A stretch of 64,000 bases of DNA from NCBI GenBank assembly GCA_003697085.1, contig RFFU01000074.1:1-64000 (forward strand), given 5' to 3'. This document shows positions 3,163-40,928 of this stretch, piece by piece. The translations under genes were made by a program, and so were the position numbers. Origin of the DNA: Candidatus Hydrogenedentota bacterium (lineage in GTDB: Bacteria > UBA8481 > J006). Each line of letters opens with the position of its first letter. Within the stretch, counting starts at the first letter, position 1. Below the pieces are notes generated by a model, which did no database searches, was not told the DNA's origin, and was given only the letters and a program-made list of their open reading frames with translations.

Positions 3163-3565
3163 CACTGTCCGGGAAAGTGTAGCAGAAGGAATGTGGTTCC
3201 GCCATTTTTTCGATTGCGCGGGTGCGGACCACGGAGACCGCGGAAGGGGAGGGAACCACGGAAGACACGGAAAAAGAGAAAGGCAAAAGGCAGAAGGAAA
3301 AAGGGAGAGAGTGGGAACCTGTGAGCGCAGGCATCCAGCCTGCAGGAGACTGGTTCGCATCAGGCAGCGAACGTGTGGAGCGCAGACATTCTTGTCTGCG
3401 AAAGGCCGGTTGGGTGTTCCGAAAGCATTCGGCGGGAAGACGAAGAACGGTGAACGAAAAACGATTACTGCGGATTCCCGAAAGACTTCAGAAATTAGGT
3501 GATAAGGATCTCTCCGCCGATTTGAACAACATTTGCGTTGCTGATAAGGAGCCGCACGTTGGTTT
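3163..3565. repeat. Gap with GA-rich tract and palindromic repeats
   Basis: About 400 bases without a credible gene. Positions 3259-3316 form a purine-rich tract (repeated GGAAAAAGAG/GGCAGAAGG words). 3321-3405 hold two imperfect palindromes of the GAGCGCAGGCATCCAGCCTGC and GAGCGCAGACATTCTTGTCTGC type. Both belong to repeat families present in most large gaps of this window. Open frames here merely translate repeats. Confidence 0.75.
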
Positions 3566-4600
3566 TTATTTCGTTTTCGAGGACGCGGCAGGTTGGGAAG
3601 TGGAAGAACTTTCCAATCGGTTGATGATTCGGGCTCCCCTTCGAAGTTCGGCGATAAGCGCCTGGAAACGCGAGGAGGTTTTCTCCTGCTTCACGAGTTG
3701 CTCGATCTTTTCCTTCACTTCCTCGTACGTCGGTGTCACCTCGGCCTGATGCGCTTCCACCAAAATCAGATGATATCCGAATCGCGTCTTGACGGGTTTG
3801 GAGACCTTGCCGACGGGGGTGGAGAACGCGGCATCTTCGAACGGCTTCACCATCCTCCCGCGGGTGAAAAACCCAAGATCGCCGCCGTTCTTGGCGCTGG
3901 GGCCGATGGAATACTGCCGCGCCAGGTCGGCAAAGGGGACTCCTTCCTTCAATTTCTTCTGAATCTCCGCGAGTTTTCCGGCGGCGGAGGAATCGTCGGC
4001 GACGAGGATGTGCCGGGCATGCACGGATTCGGGTCGCGTAAACCGCGATCGGTTCTCGGCGTAAAAGGCCTTCTTTTCCTTCTCCGACACCGTGATGTCG
4101 GAGAAACGTTTCTTGAGATAGTTTTCAATCAGGAGATTCTCCTTGAGTTCCAGTTTCAGGTCTTCGGGCGTGAGTCCCTGCGCTTCCAGTGCTTTCTTCA
4201 TCGCGTCCCTCGTGGGAAAGGACCTCGTAACCCAACGAAAAGCGGAGTCCACATCCTCGGCCGTGACCTTCGTTCCGGCGGCGGTCGCCGCGTCGAGCAG
4301 GAGATACTTGTTGATCAAATGATCGGCGACCCCTTTTTCCACTTGACCGCGAATAGCGCCGAAAGCCTCGTTTCGAGGATTGACATTGGTCAGTCCGGAC
4401 TGCGCCAAAATTTCGCGCATCTTCATATCGGTTCTCCGTTCGAGGTCGCCGCGCTCCACGTTATGGGAATTGATCGTCAAAACGATCTCCCCCGGCGAAG
4501 AGGACTTTCCGGTCTCAGCAAGGACCGCCGGAACAGAGAGACAAAAGACGGAGGCAATCAAAATCAAAGACCGAAGTCTCCGAAAGAATGAGGGATTCAT
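3566..4600 (-). CDS. Secreted PpiC/SurA-type peptidyl-prolyl isomerase
   Basis: 344-residue foldase for exported proteins. Residues 1-28 are a signal peptide (FRRLRSLILIASVFCLSVPAVLA). A SurA-like helical N-terminal region follows (about 35-185), then one parvulin domain at about 193-285 with the usual landmarks HARHILVAD, FADLARQYSIGPSAKNGGDL, FFTRGRMVKPFEDAAF and FGYHLILVE. It should assist outer-membrane or periplasmic protein folding. The ATG at 4600 is preceded by GGAAAGGAAATCTC, a good ribosome-binding site; a 16-codon upstream extension lacks one. It may be cotranscribed with the LacI-like gene upstream, 228 bases away. Confidence 0.88.
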   Translation of the reverse strand: MNPSFFRRLRSLILIASVFCLSVPAVLAETGKSSSPGEIVLTINSHNVERGDLERRTDMKMREILAQSGLTNVNPRNEAFGAIRGQVEKGVADHLINKYLLLDAATAAGTKVTAEDVDSAFRWVTRSFPTRDAMKKALEAQGLTPEDLKLELKENLLIENYLKKRFSDITVSEKEKKAFYAENRSRFTRPESVHARHILVADDSSAAGKLAEIQKKLKEGVPFADLARQYSIGPSAKNGGDLGFFTRGRMVKPFEDAAFSTPVGKVSKPVKTRFGYHLILVEAHQAEVTPTYEEVKEKIEQLVKQEKTSSRFQALIAELRRGARIINRLESSSTSQPAASSKTK

Positions 4601-25035: not shown

Positions 25036-25172
25036 GAAAACGTTTTGAGAAAATCTTTCGTAAAAAAAATCACCGACTTCACCCCTTGCGAATCTTTTTC
25101 GATCCGGCTTTATTTTTCGATAGAGAGAAGAAACGATTCTCCGCAATCGGGGAGAAAGGAGAGGTGAAAACG

Positions 25173-25319
25173 ATGGCGGAAAAGGAAGCTGAGAAGGTTG
25201 AGTCGGATTCCGGGAAGGAGCCGGAGAGGAAAGAGGAGGAGGCGCTTTCCGAGGAGGAGATGCGGAAGGTGACGGGGGGACGACTCTTTGGAAATTCGAT
25301 CGCCGGGCGGGTGCTATGA
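25173..25319 (+). CDS. Double-glycine leader peptide precursor, short form
   Basis: 48 residues: an acidic/lysine-rich stretch, then LSEEEMRKVTGG with Gly-Gly at 35-36, then a 12-residue tail RLFGNSIAGRVL. The LSxEEMxxVxGG pattern is that of bacteriocin-type leaders cut after GG by C39 peptidases. The start is ATG 25173, preceded by GGAGAGGTGAAAACG; the GAGGTGA part pairs perfectly with 16S rRNA. The same upstream sequence precedes the next gene, and the two leaders are alike over 36 residues, so they are tandem duplicates. The frame is open back to ATG 25032, giving an alternative 95-residue product. Likely exporter: the C39 ABC system at 34319-36523. Confidence 0.75.
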   Translation: MAEKEAEKVESDSGKEPERKEEEALSEEEMRKVTGGRLFGNSIAGRVL

Positions 25320-25389
25320 CTCGAGTGCTCTTCTTAAATGAGGGCGGAAATGATTCCCCGCAGTCGGGGAGAAAGGAGAGGTGAAAAGG

Positions 25390-26076
25390 ATGGCGGAAAA
25401 GGAAGACGGGAAGGCAAAAGCCGACAAAGAGAAGGAACCGGAAAGAAAACCGGAGGAACCCCTTTCGGAGGAGGAGATGAAGGATGTGGCGGGAGGGTTT
25501 ATTCCCACTCCGGCCACTTTCGGGAATCCCCTTTCGTCCCGGATGGCGTCGAGATTGCGTCGGCGCGGCGCGGTCGGTCCGGTCGATCCCGAGGAGGCGG
25601 TCTCACGCGGTCCGGTCGATCCCGAACAAAGCCGGCGTCCCGACGATCCGAAACACCCGTGGCACCTTTGCTTCGGCCCGGAGACGCTGGTTCCAACGCG
25701 GAAGGGCTATCAGCCTATTTCTGGGATCGCAGTCGGTGACGAGATCGTCAGTGTCACCTTCGACGGAACCTTGTTCGTCGATCGGGTCGAAAAGCTGGAC
25801 GTTCACCACGGGGAGATTTCCGTGATCGAACTTTCGTTGGACGACGACGTGATTCTCGTCACTCCTGACCATAAGGTCTGGTCGGGCGAGAAATGGATCC
25901 GAGCCGCCGACTCGATCTATGTTTCCCGGACGAAGGTGGGAAGAATCGTTCCGGCGGTCTATAACCTTCGAACCACCACGGGAACATACCTGGTCGGATA
26001 CAGCGGACTGCTCGTTTCAGGTGGGCGGGTGGAAGACCTGCATTCCGAGGATCCGGTGGCGGAGGTTGCTCGGTAG
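25390..26076 (+). CDS. Double-glycine leader fused to a Hint (hedgehog/intein) domain
   Basis: 228 residues. Residues 1-36 are a leader ending LSEEEMKDVAGG, paralogous to the preceding gene. Residues 37-93 are a spacer with a basic patch (MASRLRRRG) and a repeated GPVDPE. Residues 94-214 are a Hint domain: nucleophile-position Cys94 in CFGPETLVPTRKGYQPI, block-B motif VTPDHKVWSGEKW with His161, and the C-terminal strand pair VYNLRTTTGTYLVGYSGLLV. The usual final HN is replaced by SG, so Asn cyclisation is not expected; thioester or ester chemistry, as in hedgehog or type B bacterial intein-like domains, would remain. Inferred: secretion by the GG exporter, then self-cleavage before Cys94. Confidence 0.8.
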   Translation: MAEKEDGKAKADKEKEPERKPEEPLSEEEMKDVAGGFIPTPATFGNPLSSRMASRLRRRGAVGPVDPEEAVSRGPVDPEQSRRPDDPKHPWHLCFGPETLVPTRKGYQPISGIAVGDEIVSVTFDGTLFVDRVEKLDVHHGEISVIELSLDDDVILVTPDHKVWSGEKWIRAADSIYVSRTKVGRIVPAVYNLRTTTGTYLVGYSGLLVSGGRVEDLHSEDPVAEVAR

Positions 26077-26109: not shown

Positions 26110-26151
26110 GAAGGAGGGCGTGTTTTCGGAACCGTCCTCCTTTTCTTTTTT
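26110..26151 (+). terminator. Rho-independent terminator after the leader-peptide genes
   Basis: GAAGGAGG pairs with CCTCCTTTTC across an 18-base loop, and the 3' side runs into TTTTCTTTTTT. It lies 34 bases after the Hint gene stop and closes the GT2 - leader - Hint operon. Confidence 0.75.
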
Positions 26152-26300: not shown

Positions 26301-28547
26301 TTACCCTTGTTGGAACGGTTCCCCCGGCGCTGCCTCCGCCATACGCTCGAGAAAATAGACCGCCGGGCCGTCGTAGGGAAGTCGTCGTGCGACCTCGGTG
26401 ATCGATTCCTTGGCACGGGCGACGTCCTTTTCGCGGTAGGCTCGAACGCCCTTCTCCCACGTTTCCATAACCTCCAGGTAACTCTTCGGGAGCCGTGCGG
26501 TTTCATCCACAAGTTCGTAAACATCCAACGCGGCTTTCTGTCCCCGAAGCCGAAAGACTCCGACGGTACGGAAATAGAACCGGTTTGGAGCGCACTTTTC
26601 GACCTCTTGCTTCGTCTCTCCGGACGTCAGGATTGTCGTGCCGAGATCGCGGTTGAGACTTTCGAGCCGCGAGGCGATATTGACCGTCGTGCCGATGACC
26701 GTGTAATCGAAGATCGTTTCGGAACCGAGGTTTCCGGCCACGACTTCGCCTGTATGGATTCCGATTCGAATGCCGAGATTTGGCCACACTCCGCTGGCCC
26801 ACGTCTGGGCCAGCTCCGCCACCGCCCGCCGCTTTTCCAGGGCGCAGGAACAGGCGAGCACGGCGTGCTTCTCCTGGTGAAGAGGGACGTTCCATTCGGC
26901 CATCACCGCGTCGCCGATCATCTTGTCGATCGTTCCGTCGAACGCGACGATCTTCTCGGTCATCCTCGTGAAGTAGGTGTTGAGGAAGCGGACCAGATCT
27001 TCCGACGGCAACTCCATCGCCCACCGACTGAAGTGTTTGATATCCGAAAAGAGGACGGTCGCCGTCGTCTTTCGACCGACGAGTGTCAGCGCCGAGGGGT
27101 CCTTCAGGATCTCCCGCATTACGGAGGGGGCGACGTATTTCTGAAAGGCCAATCGCAGCCTCCGTTTCTCCTCGAACTGGTGATAGGTCCAGTCCGACAG
27201 GAGGAAGATGCTGGAGGCGAGCAAGGGAGCCGCGACCGGAAGAAGAAAGCCTTTGTTCATCAGTACTGCGGCGGCTCCCAGAAGAAGAACGCCACTTCCC
27301 GCCAAGGATGTCACTCCCCAAACCAGATTGCGGCGCATCCCCCACCATGCAAGAAACGCCGTGAGGACCGTAAGCAGCCAACCGAGCCACCTTGGAGGGA
27401 GCCGGAGGGAGGTGGGATCGAGCAGGGTTGCCGTGGCGTTTGCCAAAATCCGAGTGTAAGGAAGGGAAACGCCCAAGGGAGTCCGAATCCTCTTCCGAGC
27501 GGGACCGATCAAAACGATTCGCCCGGAAAAACGGTCCCGCGACAGCCGTTTCGGCGCGTTATCGAAAGCCGCGTCGTGCCACAGGTCGGCGAAGGAAAGC
27601 GGTTCCCCTGGAAAGACCTCGAAACGTCCCGCCCGATCCTTTCGATTCCGTTTCGGGTTTCGGTAATAGTTGACCAGGATGGTTTCGTCCGCATTGGCGG
27701 CGCTTTGCTCCCCGAGATTCCGGAGGAGCGAACATCGTGCGCGCCCGTTTCCAGTAAACCCACCGGAGTTGCCGGAGAGAGAAGCCGTCCAACCGGCGAT
27801 CGCCAACGGCAGAGACGGGAAGAAAACGCCCTTGACCTGGAGCCAGAGTGGGAATCCCATCGTGGGGCGTTCCGGGCGCCGAAAAGCAAGGAAGCCGATC
27901 TCCGTTTTCGGAGTCGATACGCGGGACGAGGGAAAAGAGACGCTCGGAACGGAAAGAATTTTCTTCGGGGGGGTGGAAAAGGAACAGGCGGCCGCGTCGA
28001 GTACGGCGGCTTGTTGCCGGTTTGAATTCGCGAAGCCCGAGTCGATTCGGAGAGGCAGGATGTTGGGGATTCGATCGAGCGCACTTCGAAAGGAGGCATC
28101 CTGTTCTCGGGAGAAGAGGACGGGAAATTCCGCCACGAAGGTTTCGAGTTGGCTCTCTTGTTCGGCGAGGTGTTTTCGGAGCGCGTCACGGAAGATCGTT
28201 GAATTGAGTTTGACGGGAACTTCGTCCAGTACGAAGGGAATGTGGAACGCGACCCCCTGGGCCCCGTTCTCCGCGAGATATTCGACCACCTTCGCAAAAA
28301 CACTTCTCGGCCAAGGAGGTTCTCCCATTTCGGGCTTCAGTCTTCGCAAACTTTCGTCATCGATTTCCACGACCGTGAGGGGCAACTCCGTGGTCGTTTC
28401 CCGGTAATGACGGCGTATCCGAAACGCGATGGTTTCTTCCTCGAGACCCTGAACGAGATAGAACGGGTCCAAGAGGACGAAGAGGACGATCACCGCGAGA
28501 AGAAGGGTGCTCGAGTGAGAGAAGTTCTTGACCGACCTAAGAATCAT
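26301..28547 (-). CDS. CHASE2 domain adenylate/guanylate cyclase
   Basis: 748 residues. An N-terminal helix (STLLLAVIVLFVLLDPFYLV) leads into a large extracytoplasmic CHASE2 region with TVVEIDDESLRRL and PWPRSVFAKVVEYLAENGA. Three membrane helices follow (about 365-450), then a class III cyclase domain from about 490. Catalytic landmarks are FSDIK (metal Asp, about 499), DKMIGDAVMAEWN (purine-contacting Lys and metal Asp, about 544) and DYTVIGTTVNIASRLESLN (about 616). The Lys suggests cAMP, but the pattern does not settle it. A short helical tail follows. The nearby cNMP-binding protein at 32455 is a possible receptor. GGAAGGAAGAACG supports the ATG. Confidence 0.9.
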   Translation of the reverse strand: MILRSVKNFSHSSTLLLAVIVLFVLLDPFYLVQGLEEETIAFRIRRHYRETTTELPLTVVEIDDESLRRLKPEMGEPPWPRSVFAKVVEYLAENGAQGVAFHIPFVLDEVPVKLNSTIFRDALRKHLAEQESQLETFVAEFPVLFSREQDASFRSALDRIPNILPLRIDSGFANSNRQQAAVLDAAACSFSTPPKKILSVPSVSFPSSRVSTPKTEIGFLAFRRPERPTMGFPLWLQVKGVFFPSLPLAIAGWTASLSGNSGGFTGNGRARCSLLRNLGEQSAANADETILVNYYRNPKRNRKDRAGRFEVFPGEPLSFADLWHDAAFDNAPKRLSRDRFSGRIVLIGPARKRIRTPLGVSLPYTRILANATATLLDPTSLRLPPRWLGWLLTVLTAFLAWWGMRRNLVWGVTSLAGSGVLLLGAAAVLMNKGFLLPVAAPLLASSIFLLSDWTYHQFEEKRRLRLAFQKYVAPSVMREILKDPSALTLVGRKTTATVLFSDIKHFSRWAMELPSEDLVRFLNTYFTRMTEKIVAFDGTIDKMIGDAVMAEWNVPLHQEKHAVLACSCALEKRRAVAELAQTWASGVWPNLGIRIGIHTGEVVAGNLGSETIFDYTVIGTTVNIASRLESLNRDLGTTILTSGETKQEVEKCAPNRFYFRTVGVFRLRGQKAALDVYELVDETARLPKSYLEVMETWEKGVRAYREKDVARAKESITEVARRLPYDGPAVYFLERMAEAAPGEPFQQG

Positions 28548-29208: not shown

Positions 29209-29279
29209 GCTCTCCTGTTGGAGATTTCGGAGAAGATCGAATTTGAGGAACCGTGGGAGGCGGGAAGGAGTTCGCGTGT

Positions 29280-30326
29280 ATGAGGTGGTTTTCGCGACGT
29301 CTTTTCTCTCTAGGAATGGCGGTTTCGGCTTTGTTTTTGGTGGCGGGAGCCGGGAATGCTTCCCTCTATTCCTCCAACGGTTTCTATAACGTTACCTTCA
29401 ACAATCCAACAAACACGAAATATATCGACAAGAGAGCCTCGGATTTCATCGACGCGGCTCAGTCGTACTGTTACGTCGCGATCTACGCGCTGAATCGCCA
29501 GAGGATCGTGGACAGCCTGATCGAGCGTCACCAGGCCGGGGTGGACGTTCGCGTGGTGACCGAAGCCGATAACCGTAATCACCCCTCCTACAAGGCCGCT
29601 TATGATCAACTCGAGGCCGCCGGAATCGTCGTCAAAACCGATAACCGGTCCGCTCTGATGCACCACAAGTTCATCGTGGTCGATGATAACGAGGTTCTGA
29701 CGGGATCCTACAATTTTACCGATGAAGGAACGCAACAGAACAAGAACAATCTCTTGGTCATCCACTCCTCGGGCGTCGCTTCGCGTTTCAAGGGAGAGTT
29801 CCTCGAGATGTGGGCGGGGAGGTTCGGCAACGCGAAGGCGGATTTCTCGGGGAGAAACACCGTCAGCGGCGCCACCGTGTACACGAAGTTCGGCCCGAAG
29901 GCGAATCTCCGCGCTTCCCTGCTCTACCATCTCAACACCGCCAACGTTTCCGTCTATTTCAACATCTTCACCTTCACCGACCAGTCGATCGCGGACAAGT
30001 TGGTCGAACTCCACCAGCGCGGTGTTACCGTAAAAGGCACGATGGACGCCTACCAGGCCACCGACCAGTATTCGCAGTATCAGTACCTCGTGGCGAACGG
30101 CCTGCCGATCAAGCGCGATGCATATGCGGGTTTGTTGCACGACAAATTCATCGCCATCGACGCGGGAACCGCCAGCACACCGAAACTGATCACCGGTTCG
30201 GCGAACTGGACGGCCGCGGCCGACGAGGAGAACGACGAGGATATGTTGGTCATCTACGACTACGACACCGTCGGAAGAAGTTACAAGGGAAACGCCGTTT
30301 ACGTCTACAACTACAAGGCCTACTGA
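29280..30326 (+). CDS. Secreted phospholipase-D-like protein, two HKD motifs
   Basis: 348 residues. The first 27 form a signal peptide (RRLFSLGMAVSALFLVAGAGNA). Two PLD halves follow, each with an HKD motif: MHHKFIVVDDNEVLTGSYNF (from about 126) and LLHDKFIAIDAG...ITGSANW (about 285). This is the layout of secreted Nuc-like nucleases, phospholipases and cardiolipin-synthase relatives; the substrate is not evident. The ATG at 29280 has GGAAGGAG seven bases upstream; the frame extends nine codons further, without support. It is the only plus-strand gene between the cyclase and the MntA/HepT pair. Confidence 0.9.
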   Translation: MRWFSRRLFSLGMAVSALFLVAGAGNASLYSSNGFYNVTFNNPTNTKYIDKRASDFIDAAQSYCYVAIYALNRQRIVDSLIERHQAGVDVRVVTEADNRNHPSYKAAYDQLEAAGIVVKTDNRSALMHHKFIVVDDNEVLTGSYNFTDEGTQQNKNNLLVIHSSGVASRFKGEFLEMWAGRFGNAKADFSGRNTVSGATVYTKFGPKANLRASLLYHLNTANVSVYFNIFTFTDQSIADKLVELHQRGVTVKGTMDAYQATDQYSQYQYLVANGLPIKRDAYAGLLHDKFIAIDAGTASTPKLITGSANWTAAADEENDEDMLVIYDYDTVGRSYKGNAVYVYNYKAY

Positions 30327-30568: not shown

Positions 30569-30847
30569 GTGGTGCGGGAGATCGTCGGCGAGGCGGCCAA
30601 GGTCGAGGGAATCGCCTGGGTCGTCCTTTTCGGTTCCCGCGGCCGGGGGGATCATAATCGCCGTTCGGATTATGATATCGCAATCTCGGCACCGTTGTTG
30701 TCCAGGCAAGATTGGACGTTCTTCGCCTCCCACCTTCGGGATACGGTCCGAACTCTCTGTTGTCTCGATTTGGTCCGTTGGGAAGATCCCCTCGATCCCG
30801 AATTGAGAAGAGAGATCGAACGAGGAATCCGGGTTTACGCGGCGTGA
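30569..30847 (+). CDS. mntA: MntA-type minimal nucleotidyltransferase antitoxin
   Basis: 92 residues, the normal size of MNT-domain antitoxins. The nucleotidyltransferase signature GSx10DxD is exact: G22-S23 RGRGDHNRRS D34-Y-D36. MntA adds AMP to a tyrosine of its HEPN partner and so neutralises it. The start is GTG 30569 with AAGGA a few bases upstream. Its stop overlaps the GTG of hepT (GTGA), giving the antitoxin-first order expected of the family. Confidence 0.9.
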   Translation: MVREIVGEAAKVEGIAWVVLFGSRGRGDHNRRSDYDIAISAPLLSRQDWTFFASHLRDTVRTLCCLDLVRWEDPLDPELRREIERGIRVYAA

Positions 30848-31248
30848 ATCGCCTTTCGTCCTCGATCGAGAACCTGAAATTGGCCTTCGCCGCGCTCGAA
30901 CGGTTGCTGAAAACCCCCGTCACAGAACCACGCGATCTTTCCGGTATCGTGAAGGATTTCGAGATCGTCTATGAATTGAGTTGGAAGACCTTGAAAAAAT
31001 TCCTCGAAAGCGAGGGCCATTCCCCTCGTTCAGCCAGGGAAGCCTTCCTTTTGGCCTTTCAACTCGGATACCTGGAGGATGATCGGGTCTGGGTCGAGAT
31101 GATCGAAGACCGAAACCTCACGGGACACACTTATAATCAACCTTTTGCAGCCTCTTTGGTGAAGCGGATACGGGAGAAGTATCTCCCCGCTTTGGCGGGA
31201 CTAAGGAATACGATCGTCTCAGAGAGGGAAAACCAGACCAATCGTTGA
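30844..31248 (+). CDS. hepT: HepT-type HEPN toxin
   Basis: 134 residues, all-helical, with the diagnostic RX4HXY motif R90-NLTG-H95-T-Y97, which combines the RNase residues and the tyrosine that MntA AMPylates. The N-terminal part LKLAFAALERLLKTPVTEPR and ELSWKTLKKFLESEGHSP is typical of the HI0074 family, formerly called nucleotidyltransferase substrate-binding proteins. With mntA it forms a complete type VII toxin-antitoxin module with all key residues present. Confidence 0.9.
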   Translation: MNRLSSSIENLKLAFAALERLLKTPVTEPRDLSGIVKDFEIVYELSWKTLKKFLESEGHSPRSAREAFLLAFQLGYLEDDRVWVEMIEDRNLTGHTYNQPFAASLVKRIREKYLPALAGLRNTIVSERENQTNR

Positions 31249-32435: not shown

Positions 32436-32441
32436 TATGAT
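32436..32441 (+). promoter_or_regulatory. -10 box of the exporter operon
   Basis: TATGAT. The predicted transcription start at about 32448 leaves a seven-base leader before ATG 32455 and makes the upstream in-frame ATG at 32437 untranslatable, because it lies inside the -10 box. Confidence 0.45.
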
Positions 32442-32454
32442 AGGTTGGGAAACG

Positions 32455-33057
32455 ATGCGAAAGGTCCTTTTCATTCTCGGGCTCCTGACGGATCAGGATG
32501 TTGAACGCCTCGGGAGGCTGGGGTCCATCGAGAAGATTTCAGCGGGAGCGACGTTGATAGAAGCGGGGCGTCATCCCGACAAGGTCTATTTCATACTCAG
32601 CGGTATTTTTCGTGTTACGCGGAACGCTGCCGTCGGTACGGAGGGGGCGAGCGAGGGGGCGGTGGGTTCGAAAAACGTCGTGGCGGAACTGCGCGCGGGT
32701 GAAGTATTGGGGGAGATGTCGTTCGTTCAAGATGCGCCGCCGACGGAGACGGTCACGGCGGTCGGGGAGGGTGAGGTCTTGGCGATACCCCGCGAGGACC
32801 TCCGCGCCGTTCTCGAATCGGATCCCGCTTTCGCCTCGCGTTTTTATCAAGCCATCGCCGCTTTTCTTGCGGATCGCCTGCGCGGAACGATGAACCGGCT
32901 CTATGGGAGGCCGACGGAAACGGCGGGAGCGGGAGACGATGACTCGGAGAGAGGAACGATTCTCGAAGAGGACGAGTTGGATCCCCGCGTTCTTGATCGT
33001 GTTTCGCGTGCCGGAGAACGATTCGACCGATTGCTCAAGAAGTTCCGCGGGAGATAA
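32455..33057 (+). CDS. Cyclic-nucleotide-binding protein of NHLM export operon
   Basis: 200 residues with one cNMP-binding (Crp-like) beta-roll: GATLIEAGRHPDKVYFILSG, AGEVLGEMSFVQDAPPTETV and GEGEVLAIPREDLRAVL. There is no helix-turn-helix, so it is not a Crp-type transcription factor; the C-terminal third is acidic, then helical. The opening MRKVLFILGLLTDQDVERLG matches cNMP proteins that accompany NHLM microcin exporters, which also supports ATG 32455. It precedes the HlyD gene by five bases. Likely role: a cytoplasmic switch on the transporter. The arginine expected in the phosphate-binding cassette is not obvious, so ligand binding is uncertain. Confidence 0.82.
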   Translation: MRKVLFILGLLTDQDVERLGRLGSIEKISAGATLIEAGRHPDKVYFILSGIFRVTRNAAVGTEGASEGAVGSKNVVAELRAGEVLGEMSFVQDAPPTETVTAVGEGEVLAIPREDLRAVLESDPAFASRFYQAIAAFLADRLRGTMNRLYGRPTETAGAGDDDSERGTILEEDELDPRVLDRVSRAGERFDRLLKKFRGR

Positions 33058-33062
33058 GACGT

Positions 33063-34307
33063 ATGGTCGAATATCGCAAGGCGGCGCTCGATAAACTTGC
33101 TTCCCCCGAGCAACTCGACCGTCTCATTACGGTCACCGGTTCCCGTAGTTGGCTCGCTCTGGGCTCCATCTGTTTTCTTCTTCTCCTGATCCTCGTTTGG
33201 AGTGTCGTCGGGCGGATCCCCGTCACCGTCTCGGGACGCGGAATCCTGATCCGGGAGGGGGGGTTGGTTGAGATCGAGAGTCTGGGGACGGGATTAATTT
33301 CGGAGCTCCTGGTGGAGGAAGGGGATCACGTGGAGCCGGGCCAGCTGGTCGCTCGGATCCGACAACCGACGCTCGTAACGGAGATCGAACAAGCGCGGGA
33401 TCGGGTGCAGGAGCTCGAGGTGCAGCGGGAACGGACTTCGAAGCTAGAGTCGGAACGTGTCCGGCTGGGGGCCGCCGCGCTCGACCAACAGGAGGCGGAA
33501 TTGCGAGGAACGATCCGCACCTCTCGGGAACGTGTTGCGTGGTTGGAGAAGCGGGTGGAGGCCTATCGCGATGCTGTTCGCGAGGGGCTGATCACGGAGG
33601 AGGAGTTGCGGCGGGTGATGAAGGAACGGGCGAGCGAGCGGGAGGTGATCGCGCGGGCCGAATCCCGTCTCAAGAAGATCGCGTCGGATCGCCAAGCGCT
33701 GGAGACCGAGCGGGAGCGAAATCTTCTTGCGATCGACAAACAGCTCAGCGACGCCCGGCGGACGCTGGCGGCTTTGGAGTCGCGGCTTCGCGAGGAAGGG
33801 CAGGTGTTTTCTCCGCACCGGGGCCGGGTCGTGGAGATCAAGGTCGAGCAAGGAGCGATTGTGACGAGGAACGCGGCCCTGATGAGTCTCGAGGCGGAAA
33901 CGGGCCCGCTGGTCGCCGAGGTTTTCATTCCGGTCGAGGCGAAGAAGATACGCCGTGGGATGGCGGCGCGGATCGCTCCCGCCACGGTGAAAAAGGAAGA
34001 GTACGGGATGATTGTCGGGCGCGTGGACGGTGTCTCGGCGCTTCCCGCCACGCGGGAAGGGATGATGCATCTTTTGAAGAACGAATTGTTGGTCAAAGAA
34101 CTGGCTTCGCGCGGCGCCCCCTTCCGTGTCACGTTGTCGCTCGAGGAGGATTCGGCGAGTTTCAGCGGTTTCCGATGGACCTCCTCGCGCGGGCCGAGAG
34201 TGCGGATCGAAAGCGGGATGCTCTGCGAGGGACGGATCGTCGTGGAGAAGAAGGCGCCGATCCGCTTTCTTATTCCGGCGCTCAAGTCCTTCTTCGGCAT
34301 AACGTAA
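33063..34307 (+). CDS. HlyD-family adaptor of NHLM bacteriocin export system
   Basis: 414 residues. A short cytoplasmic N-terminus and one membrane anchor (30-50, WLALGSICFLLLLILVWSVVG) lead to a lipoyl-like beta segment (VTVSGRGILIREGGLVEIES, LISELLVEEGDHVEPGQLVA), a long coiled coil (about 108-240) and the second lipoyl half plus beta-barrel (VFSPHRGRVVEIKVEQG). NHLM HlyD proteins connect the peptidase transporter to the outer envelope. Its stop precedes the C39 ABC gene by 11 bases. Confidence 0.92.
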   Translation: MVEYRKAALDKLASPEQLDRLITVTGSRSWLALGSICFLLLLILVWSVVGRIPVTVSGRGILIREGGLVEIESLGTGLISELLVEEGDHVEPGQLVARIRQPTLVTEIEQARDRVQELEVQRERTSKLESERVRLGAAALDQQEAELRGTIRTSRERVAWLEKRVEAYRDAVREGLITEEELRRVMKERASEREVIARAESRLKKIASDRQALETERERNLLAIDKQLSDARRTLAALESRLREEGQVFSPHRGRVVEIKVEQGAIVTRNAALMSLEAETGPLVAEVFIPVEAKKIRRGMAARIAPATVKKEEYGMIVGRVDGVSALPATREGMMHLLKNELLVKELASRGAPFRVTLSLEEDSASFSGFRWTSSRGPRVRIESGMLCEGRIVVEKKAPIRFLIPALKSFFGIT

Positions 34308-34318
34308 CTCGGAGAACG

Positions 34319-36523
34319 ATGGCTGTCGCCGCCGCGGAAGGTATCAAACCGTCTTCGGGAAAACCGCGGTTCCGTCGTGTCCGAACGCCGACGGTTCTTC
34401 AGATGGAGGCGGTGGAGTGCGGCGCGGCATCGCTGGCGATTATTCTCGAGTATTACGGCCGCGTGGTTCCGCTCGAGGAACTTCGCGTCGCATGCGGGGT
34501 GACGCGGGACGGAAGCAACGCCTTTCATTTGATCTCGGCTGCGCGGGAGTACGGATTCGAAGCCCACGGATACCGAAAGGACATTCCCCACCTCTACAAC
34601 ATCAAACCGCCCTTCATCATCTTCTGGAACTTCAACCATTTTTTGGTCGTCGAGGGATTGGCCAAGGATCGCGTTTTTCTCAACGATCCCGCGATGGGAC
34701 CGCGCGTCGTTCCGATGGACGAATTCAACGAGTCCTACACCGGCGTTGTTCTGACCTTTGAACCGACGCCGCGCTTCAGGAGAGGGGGACGCCGTCCGAG
34801 CCTGTCAGCGGCGGTCTGGAACCGCGTACGCCACTCTTCCGAAGGCATCGCCTACGCCGCTGTGGCGGCCGTCGCGCTCGTCGGCCCCGGATTGGCGGTT
34901 CCCGCCTTTTCGCGGATCTTCATCGATGACATTCTCATCGGCGGAATGCACGACTGGATCCGTCCCGTCCTGCTCGGTTTGGCGATCACTGGGTTTTTTC
35001 GCGTCTTTCTTACCTTTCTCCAGTCCCATTCTCTTCTTCGGCTCGAAACGAAACTTTCGATCACCCAGACCGGTCGCTTTTTGCACCATATCCTTCATCT
35101 TCCCGTCTCGTTCTACCAGCAGCGTTACGGCGGAGAAATCAGCAACCGAGTCGGTTTCAATTCGGACATCGCCCGCATCCTTTCGAACCGTCTCGCCGGA
35201 ACGATCCTGGACCTTTTCATGACTGTCTTTTATGGAACGGTTCTCTTTCTGCTTTCTCCGGTGTTGATGCTGATTGCGGTTCTGGGAGTGGCCGCGAATG
35301 CCGTTACGGCTCGGACGATGCATCGGACCCTGACCGACGAGAACCTCCGTCTTCAGCAAGAGGCCGGAGCGACTTTGTCCGCGGCGATGTCCGGCGTGGC
35401 CTCGATCGAGACGCTGAAGGCGACGGGGAGCGAATCGGACTTCTTCGCGAACTGGGCGGGGCATCACGCGAAATACACGGTGACGATGCAAAACCTGAGT
35501 CTCAAAAGTGCTCTCTATTCCTCCCTCTCGACCCTCGTGAATTCCCTTTCGGACGTGGCGATTCTGGGAGCCGGGGCCCTTCTGATTATGAACGGCCGCA
35601 TCACGATGGGAACCTTTGTCGCCTTTCACGCGCTCTCCGCCTCCTTTGCGGGTCCGGTGACGCGGATCATCAATCTCGCGACGGTGATTCAAGCCTTGCG
35701 CGCGCGCCTTGTCCGTCTCGACGACGTGCTCAATCACAAACACGCGCCGGACCTGCGGGTCGCGGAATCGACGCCGGTCGTTGCAGAAGAGGAAGAGAAA
35801 CTTTCGGGACATCTCGAGATCCGCAATCTCACCTTCGGCTATTCGCGTTTCGATCCGCCGTTGATCGAGAATTTTTCGATGACGATCGCTCCGGGCGGGC
35901 GCGTGGCTTTGGTGGGGGCATCGGGATGCGGGAAATCGACATTGGCGAAACTGATCACCGGATTGTACGAGCCGTGGGAGGGTGAGATTTATTTCGACGG
36001 ACGTCCGCGAAAGGCGATCCCGCGTTCCGTGCTTACGAGCTCCGTTGCGATGGTGGATCAAGAGATTTCACTCTTTTCCGGAACCATTCGCGAGAACATT
36101 ACACTTTGGGACGAGACGATTCCGGATATCGAAGTGGTGCGGGCGGCCAAGGATGCGGCGATTCACTCCGAGATCACAGCGCGCGCGGGGGGATATGACG
36201 CGGAGTTGGAGGAGGGAGGAGCGAATCTTTCCGGCGGTCAACGCCAGAGGCTGGAGATCGCCCGGGCGCTCGTGACGAATCCTCGCCTGCTGATTCTGGA
36301 CGAGGCGACCAGCGCTCTCGATCCCGTGACCGAGAAGGAGATCGATCGCAATCTGCGGGTGCGCGGTTGTACCTGCGTGATCGTCGCCCATCGGCTTTCG
36401 ACGATTCGCGACGCGGACGAGATCATCGTCCTTGAACGCGGCCGGGTGGTTCAAAGGGGGACGCACGAGGAATTGATCGCCGATCCGGACGCGCCGTATG
36501 CGCGATTGGTAAAGGCTCAATGA
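34319..36523 (+). CDS. NHLM-type peptidase-containing ABC transporter (C39 - TMD - NBD)
   Basis: 734 residues. The N-terminal C39 peptidase has its triad Cys34 (MEAVECGAASLAIIL), His107 (FWNFNHFLVVEG) and Asp123 (NDPAMGPR); it cuts leaders after Gly-Gly. Six membrane helices follow (about 165-460), then an ATPase with Walker A GASGCGKST (about 532), Q-loop VDQEISLFSGT, signature LSGGQRQRLEIARAL (about 636), Walker B LLILDEATSALD and switch IVAHRLS. All catalytic residues are present, so it should be active. ATG 34319 follows GGAGAACG. Its stop overlaps the next gene (ATGA). The two GG-leader genes at 25173-26076 are the only candidate substrates seen here. Confidence 0.95.
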   Translation: MAVAAAEGIKPSSGKPRFRRVRTPTVLQMEAVECGAASLAIILEYYGRVVPLEELRVACGVTRDGSNAFHLISAAREYGFEAHGYRKDIPHLYNIKPPFIIFWNFNHFLVVEGLAKDRVFLNDPAMGPRVVPMDEFNESYTGVVLTFEPTPRFRRGGRRPSLSAAVWNRVRHSSEGIAYAAVAAVALVGPGLAVPAFSRIFIDDILIGGMHDWIRPVLLGLAITGFFRVFLTFLQSHSLLRLETKLSITQTGRFLHHILHLPVSFYQQRYGGEISNRVGFNSDIARILSNRLAGTILDLFMTVFYGTVLFLLSPVLMLIAVLGVAANAVTARTMHRTLTDENLRLQQEAGATLSAAMSGVASIETLKATGSESDFFANWAGHHAKYTVTMQNLSLKSALYSSLSTLVNSLSDVAILGAGALLIMNGRITMGTFVAFHALSASFAGPVTRIINLATVIQALRARLVRLDDVLNHKHAPDLRVAESTPVVAEEEEKLSGHLEIRNLTFGYSRFDPPLIENFSMTIAPGGRVALVGASGCGKSTLAKLITGLYEPWEGEIYFDGRPRKAIPRSVLTSSVAMVDQEISLFSGTIRENITLWDETIPDIEVVRAAKDAAIHSEITARAGGYDAELEEGGANLSGGQRQRLEIARALVTNPRLLILDEATSALDPVTEKEIDRNLRVRGCTCVIVAHRLSTIRDADEIIVLERGRVVQRGTHEELIADPDAPYARLVKAQ

Positions 36524-39438
36524 CGGCGCGCGATCTGCTCGCGTCTCTCGCTCGGCTCGGTCCAGAACGGGATGTGAGCGGGAAGGAGACGTTCTACGTT
36601 CAGGGAGCCGAACGCGCGTGGGTCCTGACGAAAGGCGTTGTCGATGTCTTCGCGGTTATGCTCGAGGACGAGCGGCCCATCGGCCCGCGACATTACCTCT
36701 TCAGCGCCTCGCCGGGAATCATTCTCTTCGGTGTCGATCTTCTCCGCTACCACAAGCGTTGTGCTCTGTTGGCGGTCGGAGTTCCGGGAACGCGTGTTGT
36801 TTCCTTCGGCATCGCGGATTTGGTCGAGACGGCCCGGCGAAGTGGAACGCTGGAGGCGCTGGCGAGGCAGATTGAGGATTTTTCTGGAAAGGTAGGGGCG
36901 CTCTTCACCGCTCGTGAGCGGCCACCGTTCGATGAATTTCTCGCCGTGGGAGAGGAACGAGAGGTTCCGGCGGGTCGTGTTCTCGGAACGGAGCGCGGAA
37001 TTACTTGGGTCCACGTGATCGGGGGGAAGGTCCGGCTCTGTGGTTTCGAGGATCTCGTCGTGGAGGCCGACGGCACCGCCGTTCCTCTCGCCCCGGGGCT
37101 TTGGCTCGAAACACTTATTGCGTCACATCTCGAGGTGATCGACAGCCGCGCGTTGCTTGAACGCGATCCGCGCCTGAAGGCGTTGGGAAATTTGCAAGCC
37201 GTATATGTCCGATGGATCGAGGACCGCATCGCGGCGAAGCGGGCCGAGGAGCGGGAACGAATTTCCCGGAGGCGTGAGCGGGATCAGGCGATTCTTGCCA
37301 AGGCTCTGGAGGATCTTAGCAGTGTTCTTGTCGGAAAAGGGCGCGCCGTGCCGGAGCACGATCGTCCTCTGTTGGCCGCCTTGAATCGGATCGGCGCCGC
37401 GCTCGATTTGGATTTTCACCTTCCTTCGGAGTGGGAGTTGAGCCGGTACGGCGCCGCGCCTCTCGAGGCCATCTGCCGCCGTTCGCGGATCCGCCACCGG
37501 CGGGTGGCCCTTTACGGAGATTGGTATCGCCGGGACAACGGGCCGTTATTGGTCTTTCGAGACAAGGAGCACGGGGCAACGCCCGTAGCCGCGGTTCCTC
37601 TTTCGGAGTCGCAGTACGAATACTTTGACCCTGTCACGGGAGCGACGGGGATTCTGACGCGGGATGTTGCCGCCACGCTCGATCCCTTCGGCGTGATGTT
37701 TTATCCTCCGCTTCCCGCAAAACCGCTTCACGTCTTTCAACTACTCAGACACGGAAGCCGGTTCGTTTCGAAGGACCTCCGGCGGGTGTTGGGGTTGAGT
37801 TTGGCGGCCGGCGCGCTTTCGCTGGCGTTGCCGTGGGCGACAGGGCTCCTTTTCAGCGACGTGATTCCTTCTTCCGAGCGACCGCTTCTTCTGCAGGTTG
37901 TTTTAGCGCTGTTGATCGCTTCTTCCGTCCAGACGCTCTTCCATTTCGTTCGCACGATTGCGCTGACGCGGATGCGGGCACGGTGGGGCGAGACGGTTCA
38001 GGCGGCGCTGTGGGACCGGATCGCTTCCTTGCCTCCGCGATTCTTCCGCCGCTTCACCGTCGGGGATCTCGTGGATCGCGCCGAGGTCGTGGATCACCTG
38101 CGCGAGGAACTCAGCGGCGCCGGGCTGACGGCCATCATCGGCGGGTTGATGTCGCTGATGCAATTTATTTTGATGTTCTACTATAGCCGGGTTCTCGCTC
38201 TGGGAGCCTTGGGAATCACGGCGCTCTTTGCTCTCGTGACCGGAGGCCTTGCCGTGGGAATGCTGCGGTACGAGAGGGAGATGCAGAGGATCGCGGGGCG
38301 CCTCTCGGGTTTTCTTTACCAGGTGATCACCGGCATTGCCAAGATTCGGGTGGCGGGGGCCGAGGAACGGGCGTTTGCGGAATGGGCGCGACGGTTCCGC
38401 CGCGAACGCCTTCTCCGCTTCCGGGCCGGCTCCTACCAGAACATCATTCTCACCGTCAATGCCGGGCTGCCGATCCTTTCGACGATTCTCGTCTTTCTCC
38501 TTGTGCGTTATGCCGCGTTGCTCCCGGAGGGAGCCTGGATCAGTGTCGGGGATTTCATTGCCTTCAACGCCGCGATGACCGTCTTCCTCAACTCCGCGCT
38601 TTCGCTTACCGACACGGCGGTCAACCTTCTCAACCTCGTCCCGATGTTCGAACGCGTCGAGCCGATTCTTGTGACGGAGCCGGAAGCGCGGGAGGATCGG
38701 CCGGATCCGGGGCGCATCACCGGTTCTGTCGAGATGAGTCACGTTTCGTTTCGGTATCATCCCGACGGGCCGCTTGTTCTCGACGATGTTTCGTGGTCGG
38801 CGGCGCCCGGGGAGTTCGTTGCGTTGGTCGGGCCGTCCGGGGGAGGCAAATCGACGATCATCCGGTTGTTGCTGGGATTCGAAATCCCGGAGACGGGAAA
38901 CATCTATTTCGATGGGAGGGATGTATCGGCGGTGGACGTCACGGCGTTGCGGCGTCAGATCGGAGTCGTTCTCCAGAACAGCCGGCTCCGCCCCGGCTCG
39001 ATCTTCGACAATATCGTCGGTTCCTCGAATCTTACCCTCGATGATGCCTGGCGTGTGGCCGAGCAGGCGGGTTTGAAGGAGGATATCGAGGCGATGCCGA
39101 TGGGAATGCACACGAACATTTCCGAGGGAGGGACGACGTTTTCGGGGGGGCAGCGACAACGAATTCTGATCGCCCGCGCGCTGATTCATCAACCGCGAAT
39201 CCTGATCTTCGACGAAGCGACGAGTGCCCTGGACAACACGACGCAGAAAGTCGTCTCCGACAGTCTCGACCGTCTCAATGCAACGCGGATCGTGATCGCC
39301 CATCGCCTTTCGACGATCCGAAATGCCGACAGAATCTATGTAATCGAGAAGGGAAGGATTGTACAACGGGGAAACTACGAGGAATTGATGACGGAGGGAG
39401 GTCTATTCACCGACCTCGCGCGCCGTCAACTCGCTTAG
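36520..39438 (+). CDS. NHLM-type ABC transporter permease/ATPase, second subunit
   Basis: 972 residues, the size of the second NHLM microcin ABC protein. An unusually long N-terminal region (about 1-400) comes first; its start (YVQGAERAWVLTKGVVDVFA, FSASPGIILFGVD) looks like a cNMP-binding or cupin-like beta-roll and replaces the C39 peptidase. The transmembrane domain follows (about 410-700), then an ATPase with Walker A GPSGGGKST (about 770), signature FSGGQRQRILIARALI (about 873), Walker B ILIFDEATSALD and VIAHRLS. It probably pairs with the C39 protein as a heterodimer or acts at a later step. ATG 36520 overlaps the previous stop. Confidence 0.93.
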   Translation: MTARDLLASLARLGPERDVSGKETFYVQGAERAWVLTKGVVDVFAVMLEDERPIGPRHYLFSASPGIILFGVDLLRYHKRCALLAVGVPGTRVVSFGIADLVETARRSGTLEALARQIEDFSGKVGALFTARERPPFDEFLAVGEEREVPAGRVLGTERGITWVHVIGGKVRLCGFEDLVVEADGTAVPLAPGLWLETLIASHLEVIDSRALLERDPRLKALGNLQAVYVRWIEDRIAAKRAEERERISRRRERDQAILAKALEDLSSVLVGKGRAVPEHDRPLLAALNRIGAALDLDFHLPSEWELSRYGAAPLEAICRRSRIRHRRVALYGDWYRRDNGPLLVFRDKEHGATPVAAVPLSESQYEYFDPVTGATGILTRDVAATLDPFGVMFYPPLPAKPLHVFQLLRHGSRFVSKDLRRVLGLSLAAGALSLALPWATGLLFSDVIPSSERPLLLQVVLALLIASSVQTLFHFVRTIALTRMRARWGETVQAALWDRIASLPPRFFRRFTVGDLVDRAEVVDHLREELSGAGLTAIIGGLMSLMQFILMFYYSRVLALGALGITALFALVTGGLAVGMLRYEREMQRIAGRLSGFLYQVITGIAKIRVAGAEERAFAEWARRFRRERLLRFRAGSYQNIILTVNAGLPILSTILVFLLVRYAALLPEGAWISVGDFIAFNAAMTVFLNSALSLTDTAVNLLNLVPMFERVEPILVTEPEAREDRPDPGRITGSVEMSHVSFRYHPDGPLVLDDVSWSAAPGEFVALVGPSGGGKSTIIRLLLGFEIPETGNIYFDGRDVSAVDVTALRRQIGVVLQNSRLRPGSIFDNIVGSSNLTLDDAWRVAEQAGLKEDIEAMPMGMHTNISEGGTTFSGGQRQRILIARALIHQPRILIFDEATSALDNTTQKVVSDSLDRLNATRIVIAHRLSTIRNADRIYVIEKGRIVQRGNYEELMTEGGLFTDLARRQLA

Positions 39439-39529
39439 CGAGGCAGGGCTGGACAAATCCATGACGACACGACAGCGAGGCACCAAAGGTGAATCTCCGC
39501 CCCTTCGTTTCCTTTTTCTCTCCCGCTGA

Positions 39530-39535
39530 TACAAT
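39530..39535 (+). promoter_or_regulatory. -10 box adjacent to the FkbM gene start
   Basis: TACAAT, with the predicted transcription start at 39542, one base before ATG 39543. No Shine-Dalgarno site; the -35 is weak (TTCGTT, 20 bases upstream). Confidence 0.4.
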
Positions 39536-39542
39536 TTCCCCG

Positions 39543-40928
39543 ATGGAACGGTTTTCGGATAAGAGCTTCTCGGATCGTGATGTCTCCGAACAACGGCGGC
39601 CGCGGATTCTCGTGGTTCGCTCCTGCGCGGCGACGCTCCTACCCGCAATCGATTCTCTCCGTAATGAATTTCCAGATGCGGCTGTCGATCTTCTGGTGAG
39701 CCGCGGATTTCGAGACGCGGCGGGGAACGAAGCCGCGAACGGCCGCGTAATCGAGGTTGATCGGGACGGACCGTTTCGTCGAGCCAGTCTGCGTGCCGCC
39801 ACGCGACGAACGTTTCGCAAGACGAATTATATCGCCGTCGTGACCCTCTATCCTCCGGAAACCACCGCACCGGCCGCGAATCTCGAGTCCCTCGTCCGAT
39901 CGCTTCGCGTCCACCGCCACCTTCGGCTTCGCCGAAAGGGAAACAGCGTCGAACCTCTTCCCGAGACACCGGCGATTCGAGCAAGAACGAGGCAAGGGCG
40001 AGGCTCCGGCCGATGGCGTTCGAGTGCATTCGTTGAACTCGCCTCCCCGGCGCGTTCCCCGCATTCCTTCTCGCGTCGGCTTCGATCCTTTTACGCCACG
40101 CTCTTCAATAAACCCGCCTTCCTCCCATGGAACCGTTTTCTCTTCCGGCTCGGACTGGCCGGTTTGGGCGTCGACCATTGCGGAGACGAGAAGAACAGCG
40201 GGGAAGCCTGGTTCGTCCGCAACATCCTGCGCCGTATCGGAAAAAAGGCCACGGTCGTCGATGTGGGAGCCGGTATCGGTCGTTACGCACGCTTGGTCCG
40301 ACGGAATGCTTCCGATGCACGTATCCTCTGCCTCGAACCCCACCCCGCCACCTTTCGCGTTCTTTCGGCCGCCGCCGCCGAAATAGGAGCGGAGGCTTTC
40401 GCCGTCGGCGCAGCGGAGACGGATCGTTCAGCGCCGCTTTTCGATTTTGTTCCGACCGGCTCGTCCCGAGCATCGCTCTTTCCGGAGACGCTCCTCTCCG
40501 GCTCCCGTCTTGATCAGTCACGTCCCGCGGAGGGGGATTCCGGTGAAGAATCCCTCTGGCACTCCGACGTTCCCCTCGTCAGCCTCGACTCTTGGCTCCC
40601 CGCGCAGGAGGTCTCCCAGATTCATCTTCTTAAAATAGATACCGAAGGTTCTGAACGTCTCGTCCTCGAAGGGGCACGCCGTTTTCTTTCGGAGGGAAGG
40701 GTGGATGTCATTCAGTTCGAATTCAACGAGATGAATCTTGCCTCTCGGACGTTCTTGGCGGACATTCGAACGCTTCTCCCCGGATTTCAACTCTATCGGA
40801 TTCTCTCCACCGGCCTCCTTCCGCTCGATTCCCTCGCTCCCTTCGAGCGAGAGATATTCGCGTATCAGAATATCGCCGCGATCCGATCCGCTCTGTCGTC
40901 GCCGGATGGCATCTTCAACTCACTGTGA
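39543..40928 (+). CDS. FkbM-family methyltransferase with extra N-terminal domain
   Basis: 461 residues. Residues about 215-440 are an FkbM methyltransferase: VVDVGAGIGRYARLVRR (SAM motif I, about 237), ARILCLEPHPATFRVLSA, VPLVSLDSWL, IHLLKIDTEGSERLVLEGA and IQFEFNEMN. FkbM enzymes O-methylate sugars. Residues about 20-190 are a separate unit (RRPRILVVRSCAATLLPAID, AVDLLVSRGFRDAA, YIAVVTLYPPETTAP) that recalls the N-terminal half of a heptosyltransferase-like Rossmann fold. Its stop overlaps, tail to tail by nine bases, the stop of the GT4 gene on the other strand. Confidence 0.85.
   Translation: MERFSDKSFSDRDVSEQRRPRILVVRSCAATLLPAIDSLRNEFPDAAVDLLVSRGFRDAAGNEAANGRVIEVDRDGPFRRASLRAATRRTFRKTNYIAVVTLYPPETTAPAANLESLVRSLRVHRHLRLRRKGNSVEPLPETPAIRARTRQGRGSGRWRSSAFVELASPARSPHSFSRRLRSFYATLFNKPAFLPWNRFLFRLGLAGLGVDHCGDEKNSGEAWFVRNILRRIGKKATVVDVGAGIGRYARLVRRNASDARILCLEPHPATFRVLSAAAAEIGAEAFAVGAAETDRSAPLFDFVPTGSSRASLFPETLLSGSRLDQSRPAEGDSGEESLWHSDVPLVSLDSWLPAQEVSQIHLLKIDTEGSERLVLEGARRFLSEGRVDVIQFEFNEMNLASRTFLADIRTLLPGFQLYRILSTGLLPLDSLAPFEREIFAYQNIAAIRSALSSPDGIFNSL

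Follow-up and report, generated by a model that had tools for sequence, protein, structure and literature searches.

Known systems of peptide export and Hint processing

The protein families TIGR03794, TIGR03796 and TIGR03797 were described as the export partners of peptides with a double-glycine (GG) leader, and in these NHLM/NHLP systems the leaders have their origin in nitrile hydratase or Nif11 (Haft et al., 2010; PMC2887384). In the hedgehog protein, the Cys, Thr and His of the Hint domain carry the N-S acyl shift and, as revealed by mutation, are needed for N-terminal cleavage, and D303 controls the transfer to cholesterol as the general base for the acceptor (PMC9163320). Hint domains are also found in the bacterial intein-like (BIL) domains of type A and in PT-HINT, both of which end in His-Asn and lie inside large proteins or before a downstream module.

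Here, a GG-leader/Hint protein is described from a bacterium of a poorly sampled lineage; it joins two known kinds and is a singleton so far. The window, to which all coordinates refer unless a contig is named, is the whole analysed stretch of 64,000 nucleotides. The original prediction had described a secreted self-processing protein, in which export releases a spacer joined to a Hint domain that then cleaves or transfers this spacer. That interpretation is partly supported. The observation as a whole, comprising the open reading frame (ORF), the leader and the Hint domain, is confirmed, and the present analysis added a leader paralogue (25173-25319), a terminator-like hairpin (26110-26143) and the NHLM identity of the exporter.

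Gene structure and flanking regions

The gene at 25390-26076 (+ strand), which was recognized by its ORF, motif, custom profile and fold, encodes 228 aa arranged as leader (residues 1-36), spacer (37-93) and Hint domain (94-228). The frame is intact, and the ATG at 25390 is preceded by a AGGAGAGGTG-type ribosome site that was judged good; a GTG three codons upstream is a mechanical alternative start. The G+C content by codon position (0.67/0.45/0.68) is that of coding DNA and is similar in the neighbouring genes. The 5' region at 25330-25389 (+) is common to this gene and its paralogue (47 of 60 bases are identical to 25113-25172) and contains the ribosome site as well as a small hairpin. This hairpin is not clearly stronger than expected by chance, as 22 of 200 shuffles fold equally well, and any role for it would be putative. 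Downstream, a terminator-like hairpin and T run are present at 26110-26151 (+; -19.9 kcal/mol, z -2.45), with the hairpin proper at 26110-26143; the automatic scan did not report a terminator there.

The GG leader, its paralogue and the spacer

The leader (25390-25497, +), for which a C39 cut after Gly36 is predicted from the GG motif, is acidic and ends with LSEEEMKDVAGG at residues 25-36. It follows the class II bacteriocin-type pattern, with L-12, M/L-7, V-4, G-2 and G-1 ending a short acidic leader. The strict GG motif occurs twice in the six frames of the window, both times in adjacent + strand genes, and in none of 30 randomized windows. The second occurrence belongs to a paralogous peptide gene of 48 aa (25173-25319, +), located 70 bp upstream of the Hint gene and consisting of the leader MAEKEAEKVESDSGKEPERKEEEALSEEEMRKVTGG and the 12-aa core RLFGNSIAGRVL. 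The two leaders are 67% identical (E=2e-8 in a search of their own genome), begin with MAEKE and share the pattern ...EPERK.EE.LSEEEM..V.GG. Their differences at codon positions 1, 2 and 3 number 8, 7 and 15, so that half of the total (15/30) fall at the third position, as expected if both genes are translated and constrained. Since the leader is duplicated in a neighbouring gene, it is regarded as genuine, in agreement with the predicted bacteriocin-type leader, and this duplication together with the empty randomized windows rules against a chance occurrence of the motif.

The leaders in this genome (26-40 aa) are shorter than those of the described NHLM/NHLP systems and fall outside the nitrile-hydratase and Nif11 leader families. 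The nitrile-hydratase-type model TIGR03793 gave zero matches at E<=1, and TIGR01847 scored 13.2 bits on the paralogue, below its cut-off of 15.7. A further GG-leader gene with a strong ribosome site and the 10-aa core SGVAGLIFYP was detected at C67:8492-8644 (L068), and a weaker candidate, MSQEQQQENKDAKTLSAENLKKVQGG followed by a 34-aa core, at about 3480-3568 on the minus strand of C23 (L078); their leaders are related to those described here, and both lie on contigs other than that of the exporter. Two cyanobacterial ORFs near NHLM exporters (L131:6185-6652 and L159:4426-4677, both on the minus strand) show head-to-tail repeats of GG motif and peptide (EDGGYRRQNPEGVGPTEGLLSDADLSTVSGG...), and from their sequences they are possibly polyproteins with several GG cutting sites.

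The spacer (25498-25668, +), delimited by sequence inspection, comprises residues 37-93 and has the 57-residue length that had been proposed. Its first 25 residues are basic (net +5), its later part is acidic and proline-containing with repeated GPVDPE, and the peptide Phe37-Leu93 as a whole has a pI of 10.5. The cores that follow the two leaders differ (RLFGNSIAGRVL in the paralogue and FIPTPATFGNPLSSRMASRLRRR... in the Hint protein). The FGNP...R at the spacer start nevertheless recalls the core of the paralogue (TFGNPLSSRM/LFGNSIAGRV), and this resemblance suggests a peptide product; the FGN and Arg pattern apparently common to both cores is suggestive only.

The Hint domain

The predicted Hint domain (residues 94-228; 25669-26073, +) contains C94, D137, T158 and H161, closes with the block-F-like strands VYNLRTTTGTYLVGYSGLLVSGG (residues 190-212; 25957-26025, +), which lack the His-Asn of inteins, and ends in the short tail RVEDLHSEDPVAEVAR. 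Model searches, which had been proposed as a check on the original prediction, gave a divided answer. None of the curated Pfam/NCBIfam Hint models matched over its cut-off: Pfam Hint_2 reached 18.7 bits (E=0.0023; cut-off 28.4) and TIGR01445 15.2 bits (cut-off 24.5), and the intein N-terminus (E=0.033) and hedgehog Hint (E=0.21) models were marginal. The model cut-off is a detection limit rather than a property of the fold. A custom profile, built from ten Hint sequences of other genomes that were picked with Pfam Hint_2 and with this protein excluded, picked the domain out of 2580 sequences with 33.3 bits (E=4.9e-9); when the domain was shuffled 2000 times, the highest score was 10.6 bits. 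One of the ten members (L013) had also turned up when this protein was used as the query. A PT-HINT-like profile matched the domain at 26 bits. Phage tblastn matches (E 0.004-0.3) lie in helicase, portal and polymerase genes; the ones read out proved to be Hint domains, and most of these align starting at C94. The domain is only 20-30% identical to its relatives.

An AlphaFold model (pLDDT 65, pTM 0.51), whose input alignment contained 28 rows of viral inteins, has the horseshoe β-fold of Hint domains with the N and C termini together; since these rows are inteins and may have helped the fold, the model and the sequence alignment are not independent of each other. Block F had zero alignment rows and still aligned structurally, and the single-sequence model (pLDDT 44) was unusable. 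The top fold matches were exclusively BIL, intein and hedgehog structures (Foldseek E 1e-4, BIL ranked first), with VIA Z values of 11.4 for the gp41-1 intein, 10.7 for hedgehog (1at0) and 10.5 for BIL (2lwy), and the superpositions were within 2.2-3.0 A over about 110 residues. Against 1at0, the model shows 26% identity and C94 falls on C258. As judged by the custom profile and the modelled fold, homology to Hint domains is firm, and the comparison with shuffles together with the fold matches rules against chance similarity.

Other genomes encode predicted lipoproteins whose C-terminal Hint domain lacks the terminal His-Asn (L279, L280 and L281, present as several copies in G189, and L244 and L245). 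In both cases a predicted secreted protein ends in a non-splicing Hint domain, with a Sec/lipobox signal there and a GG leader here, and such lipoproteins show that a Hint tail at the end of a secreted protein has precedents. On this likeness it could be proposed that the GG leader is a mere export signal, taking the place of the lipoprotein signal of other bacteria, that the spacer is a linker, and that the role of the Hint domain is to process the protein or to anchor it, no bioactive peptide being released. Membership of the lipoprotein-Hint subclass was rejected, however: an earlier apparent match was circular, as the query contained this protein, and the profile without it scores 8.1 bits on the domain, compared with 9.3 for a shuffle. 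Considering also the likeness of the spacer start to the neighbouring core, which speaks for a peptide product, we regard such a role as unlikely.

Tandem multi-Hint proteins of 730-860 aa were also found, in which each Hint domain ends in HNKG and the Cys of the next domain follows directly (L191/L200 at G396:C124, L202/L204/L205 at G396:C150, L193/L201/L203 at G395:C131).

Catalytic residues and permitted chemistry

C94 and the motif TPDH (residues 158-161, with T158 and H161) are invariant in an alignment with six other Hint domains, so that the catalytic first Cys/Ser and the block-B TxxH are both present, and the predicted Cys94 and His161 held. C94, T158 and H161 correspond to the hedgehog residues required for N-terminal cleavage. 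The closing strand that had been noted corresponds to block F, which ends in VSGGRVED, Ser-Gly-Gly standing in place of the terminal His-Asn of inteins, and the block-F His is missing from the domain. With both features lost, neither Asn cyclization nor splicing can occur, as had been argued from the missing Asn, and N-terminal cleavage is the sole option. An intein in a host protein (class 1, with terminal His-Asn and a Cys, Ser or Thr at +1) was rejected, as there is no terminal Asn and no C-extein, and a BIL domain of type A, which has His-Asn but no +1 nucleophile, was rejected because the domain lacks His-Asn. As in BIL and PT-HINT (2lwy), the Hint domain is part of a bacterial protein destined for secretion and, here by prediction, cleaves instead of splicing; unlike in those proteins, the Hint domain is the end of this protein.

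The hedgehog C-terminal Hint domain (1at0) resembles this domain in its fold, first Cys and TxxH, with D137 as a possible counterpart of D303, and it likewise lacks the terminal Asn, leaving only N-terminal cleavage. The present protein differs in being bacterial, in its predicted GG-leader export and in carrying a short peptide instead of the hedgehog signalling domain. Neither a sterol-recognition region nor another acceptor-binding domain was found after the Hint domain in the protein, and the hedgehog comparison, which stands for the N-cleavage residues, is for that reason an analogy and not a family relationship.

Hint domains may lose their activity yet retain the fold, and this one could be a decayed or structural passenger without catalysis, fused accidentally after the leader duplication. 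The singleton status, the loss of the block-F His and terminal His-Asn and the scores of the curated models below cut-off fit such a passenger; the intact frame and coding composition do not, nor does the survival of exactly the three N-cleavage residues in a domain so divergent from its relatives, and we consider decay quite improbable. Hint cleavage before C94 is plausible from the residues retained.

The domain might otherwise act as a ligase, in which a specific nucleophile attacks the thioester, for example an amine or alcohol of the cell surface, a lipid, or Phe37 once it has become the N-terminus. The product would be a peptide that is either anchored or closed head to tail into a circle. 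The loss of His-Asn leaves no possible splicing partner, the C39 cut would expose an N-terminus within the molecule that carries the thioester, and phmmer pairs D137 with D303, which in hedgehog serves the acceptor as general base. Other bacterial Hint domains do not conserve D137, however, only 16 residues follow block F, leaving the enzyme without an acceptor domain, and Phe37 is a poorer nucleophile than Cys. Ligation is a minority reading, and a dedicated ligase seems rather unlikely to us.

The exporter cluster and neighbouring genes

The exporter cluster, all on the + strand, is headed by a cyclic-nucleotide-binding protein (32437-33057; PF00027, E=4e-18), followed by an NHLM HlyD-type adaptor (33063-34307; TIGR03794, 348 bits, cut-off 156), an NHLM C39 peptidase/ABC exporter (34319-36523; TIGR03796, 1027 bits, cut-off 853) and a second NHLM ABC exporter subunit without peptidase (36520-39438; TIGR03797, 876 bits, cut-off 709). 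With three models over cut-off and contiguous genes, 33063-39438 represents a complete NHLM/NHLP cassette. The C39 triad (C34, H107, D123) is intact and invariant in the alignment, and the gene is the only TIGR03796 match in the whole genome that includes the peptidase part. The intact C39 exporter that had been noted about 8 kb downstream was thus recovered, on the same strand as the Hint gene and in a separate gene cluster, and was reassigned from a generic bacteriocin exporter to an NHLM/NHLP cassette. As in the described NHLM/NHLP systems, a complete three-gene exporter with C39 peptidase and GG-leader peptides occur in one genome; the Hint-bearing cargo sets this system apart, being present at 0 of 80 other NHLM loci. 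Export of the Hint protein is likely.

The cluster lies 6.4-7 kb from the Hint gene, behind unrelated genes. These include a CHASE2-adenylate/guanylate cyclase (26301-28547, -), a phospholipase-D-like protein with a signal-like N-terminus (29253-30326) and a nucleotidyltransferase/substrate-binding pair of the MNT-HEPN kind (30569-31248). Cyclic-nucleotide control of export is possible, given the cyclase and the cyclic-nucleotide-binding protein nearby. An FkbM-type methyltransferase gene (39489-40928) begins 51 bp past the exporter; its product could act on the peptides or go with the glycosyltransferase genes beyond. No modification enzyme was found among the neighbours examined, and anti-phage defence models gave zero matches.

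Search for relatives

Homologues keeping both leader and Hint domain, the search for which had been suggested as a further check, did not appear in 386 diverse genomes (tblastn/HMM), in two phyla represented by 39 and 301 genomes, for which short ORFs were looked at as well, in GTDB or viral contigs (close relatives only), or in plasmids or phages. The 1.8 Mb surrounding NHLM and related exporters, a set including 80 NHLM loci from named genomes, yielded no Hint domain. The one same-order genome examined (86% complete) lacks both the protein and any strong match to TIGR03796. The open-access papers searched held nothing linking Hint domains to GG leaders or NHLP, in line with the earlier remark that this architecture was not known as a characterised system. 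The singleton status is the main weakness of the case.

Proposed maturation and its meaning

The evidence is firm for the gene, its leader, the Hint fold and the exporter; we infer that this protein is exported and cut twice, in which order and where this happens, and what becomes of the thioester. From its sequence, the protein has about an even chance of being the precursor of a small secreted peptide whose two ends are processed by C39 and Hint. The GG leader would deliver the precursor to the NHLM exporter, and the C39 domain would remove residues 1-36, cutting after GG36. Before or after this cut, the Hint domain would form a thioester at Leu93-Cys94 via the N-S acyl shift, and the 57-residue Phe37-Leu93 would be freed by hydrolysis or passed to an external nucleophile. 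Against processing at both ends stand the single gene, with no homologue showing that the parts are kept together, the size of the mature protein (192 aa, 21 kDa), a large one among substrates of C39 exporters, the distance to the exporter cluster with unrelated genes between, the Leu before the Cys, where hedgehog has Gly, and the capacity of Hint folds to outlive their activity.

The most far-reaching version, a bacterial counterpart of hedgehog processing in which export is coupled to ligation of the peptide, either onto a surface molecule or onto its N-terminus to close a circle, is very improbable in our estimate; C39 would free the N-terminus while Hint holds the C-terminus as a thioester. 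To our knowledge, the cut made by peptide exporters is confined to the N-terminal end of the substrate. A substrate that brings along a C-terminal domain for cleaving or ligating would, if processing at both ends is true, represent a new way of maturing exported peptides, would unite C39 and Hint chemistries in one 228-residue protein and would provide a compact natural source of peptide thioesters.
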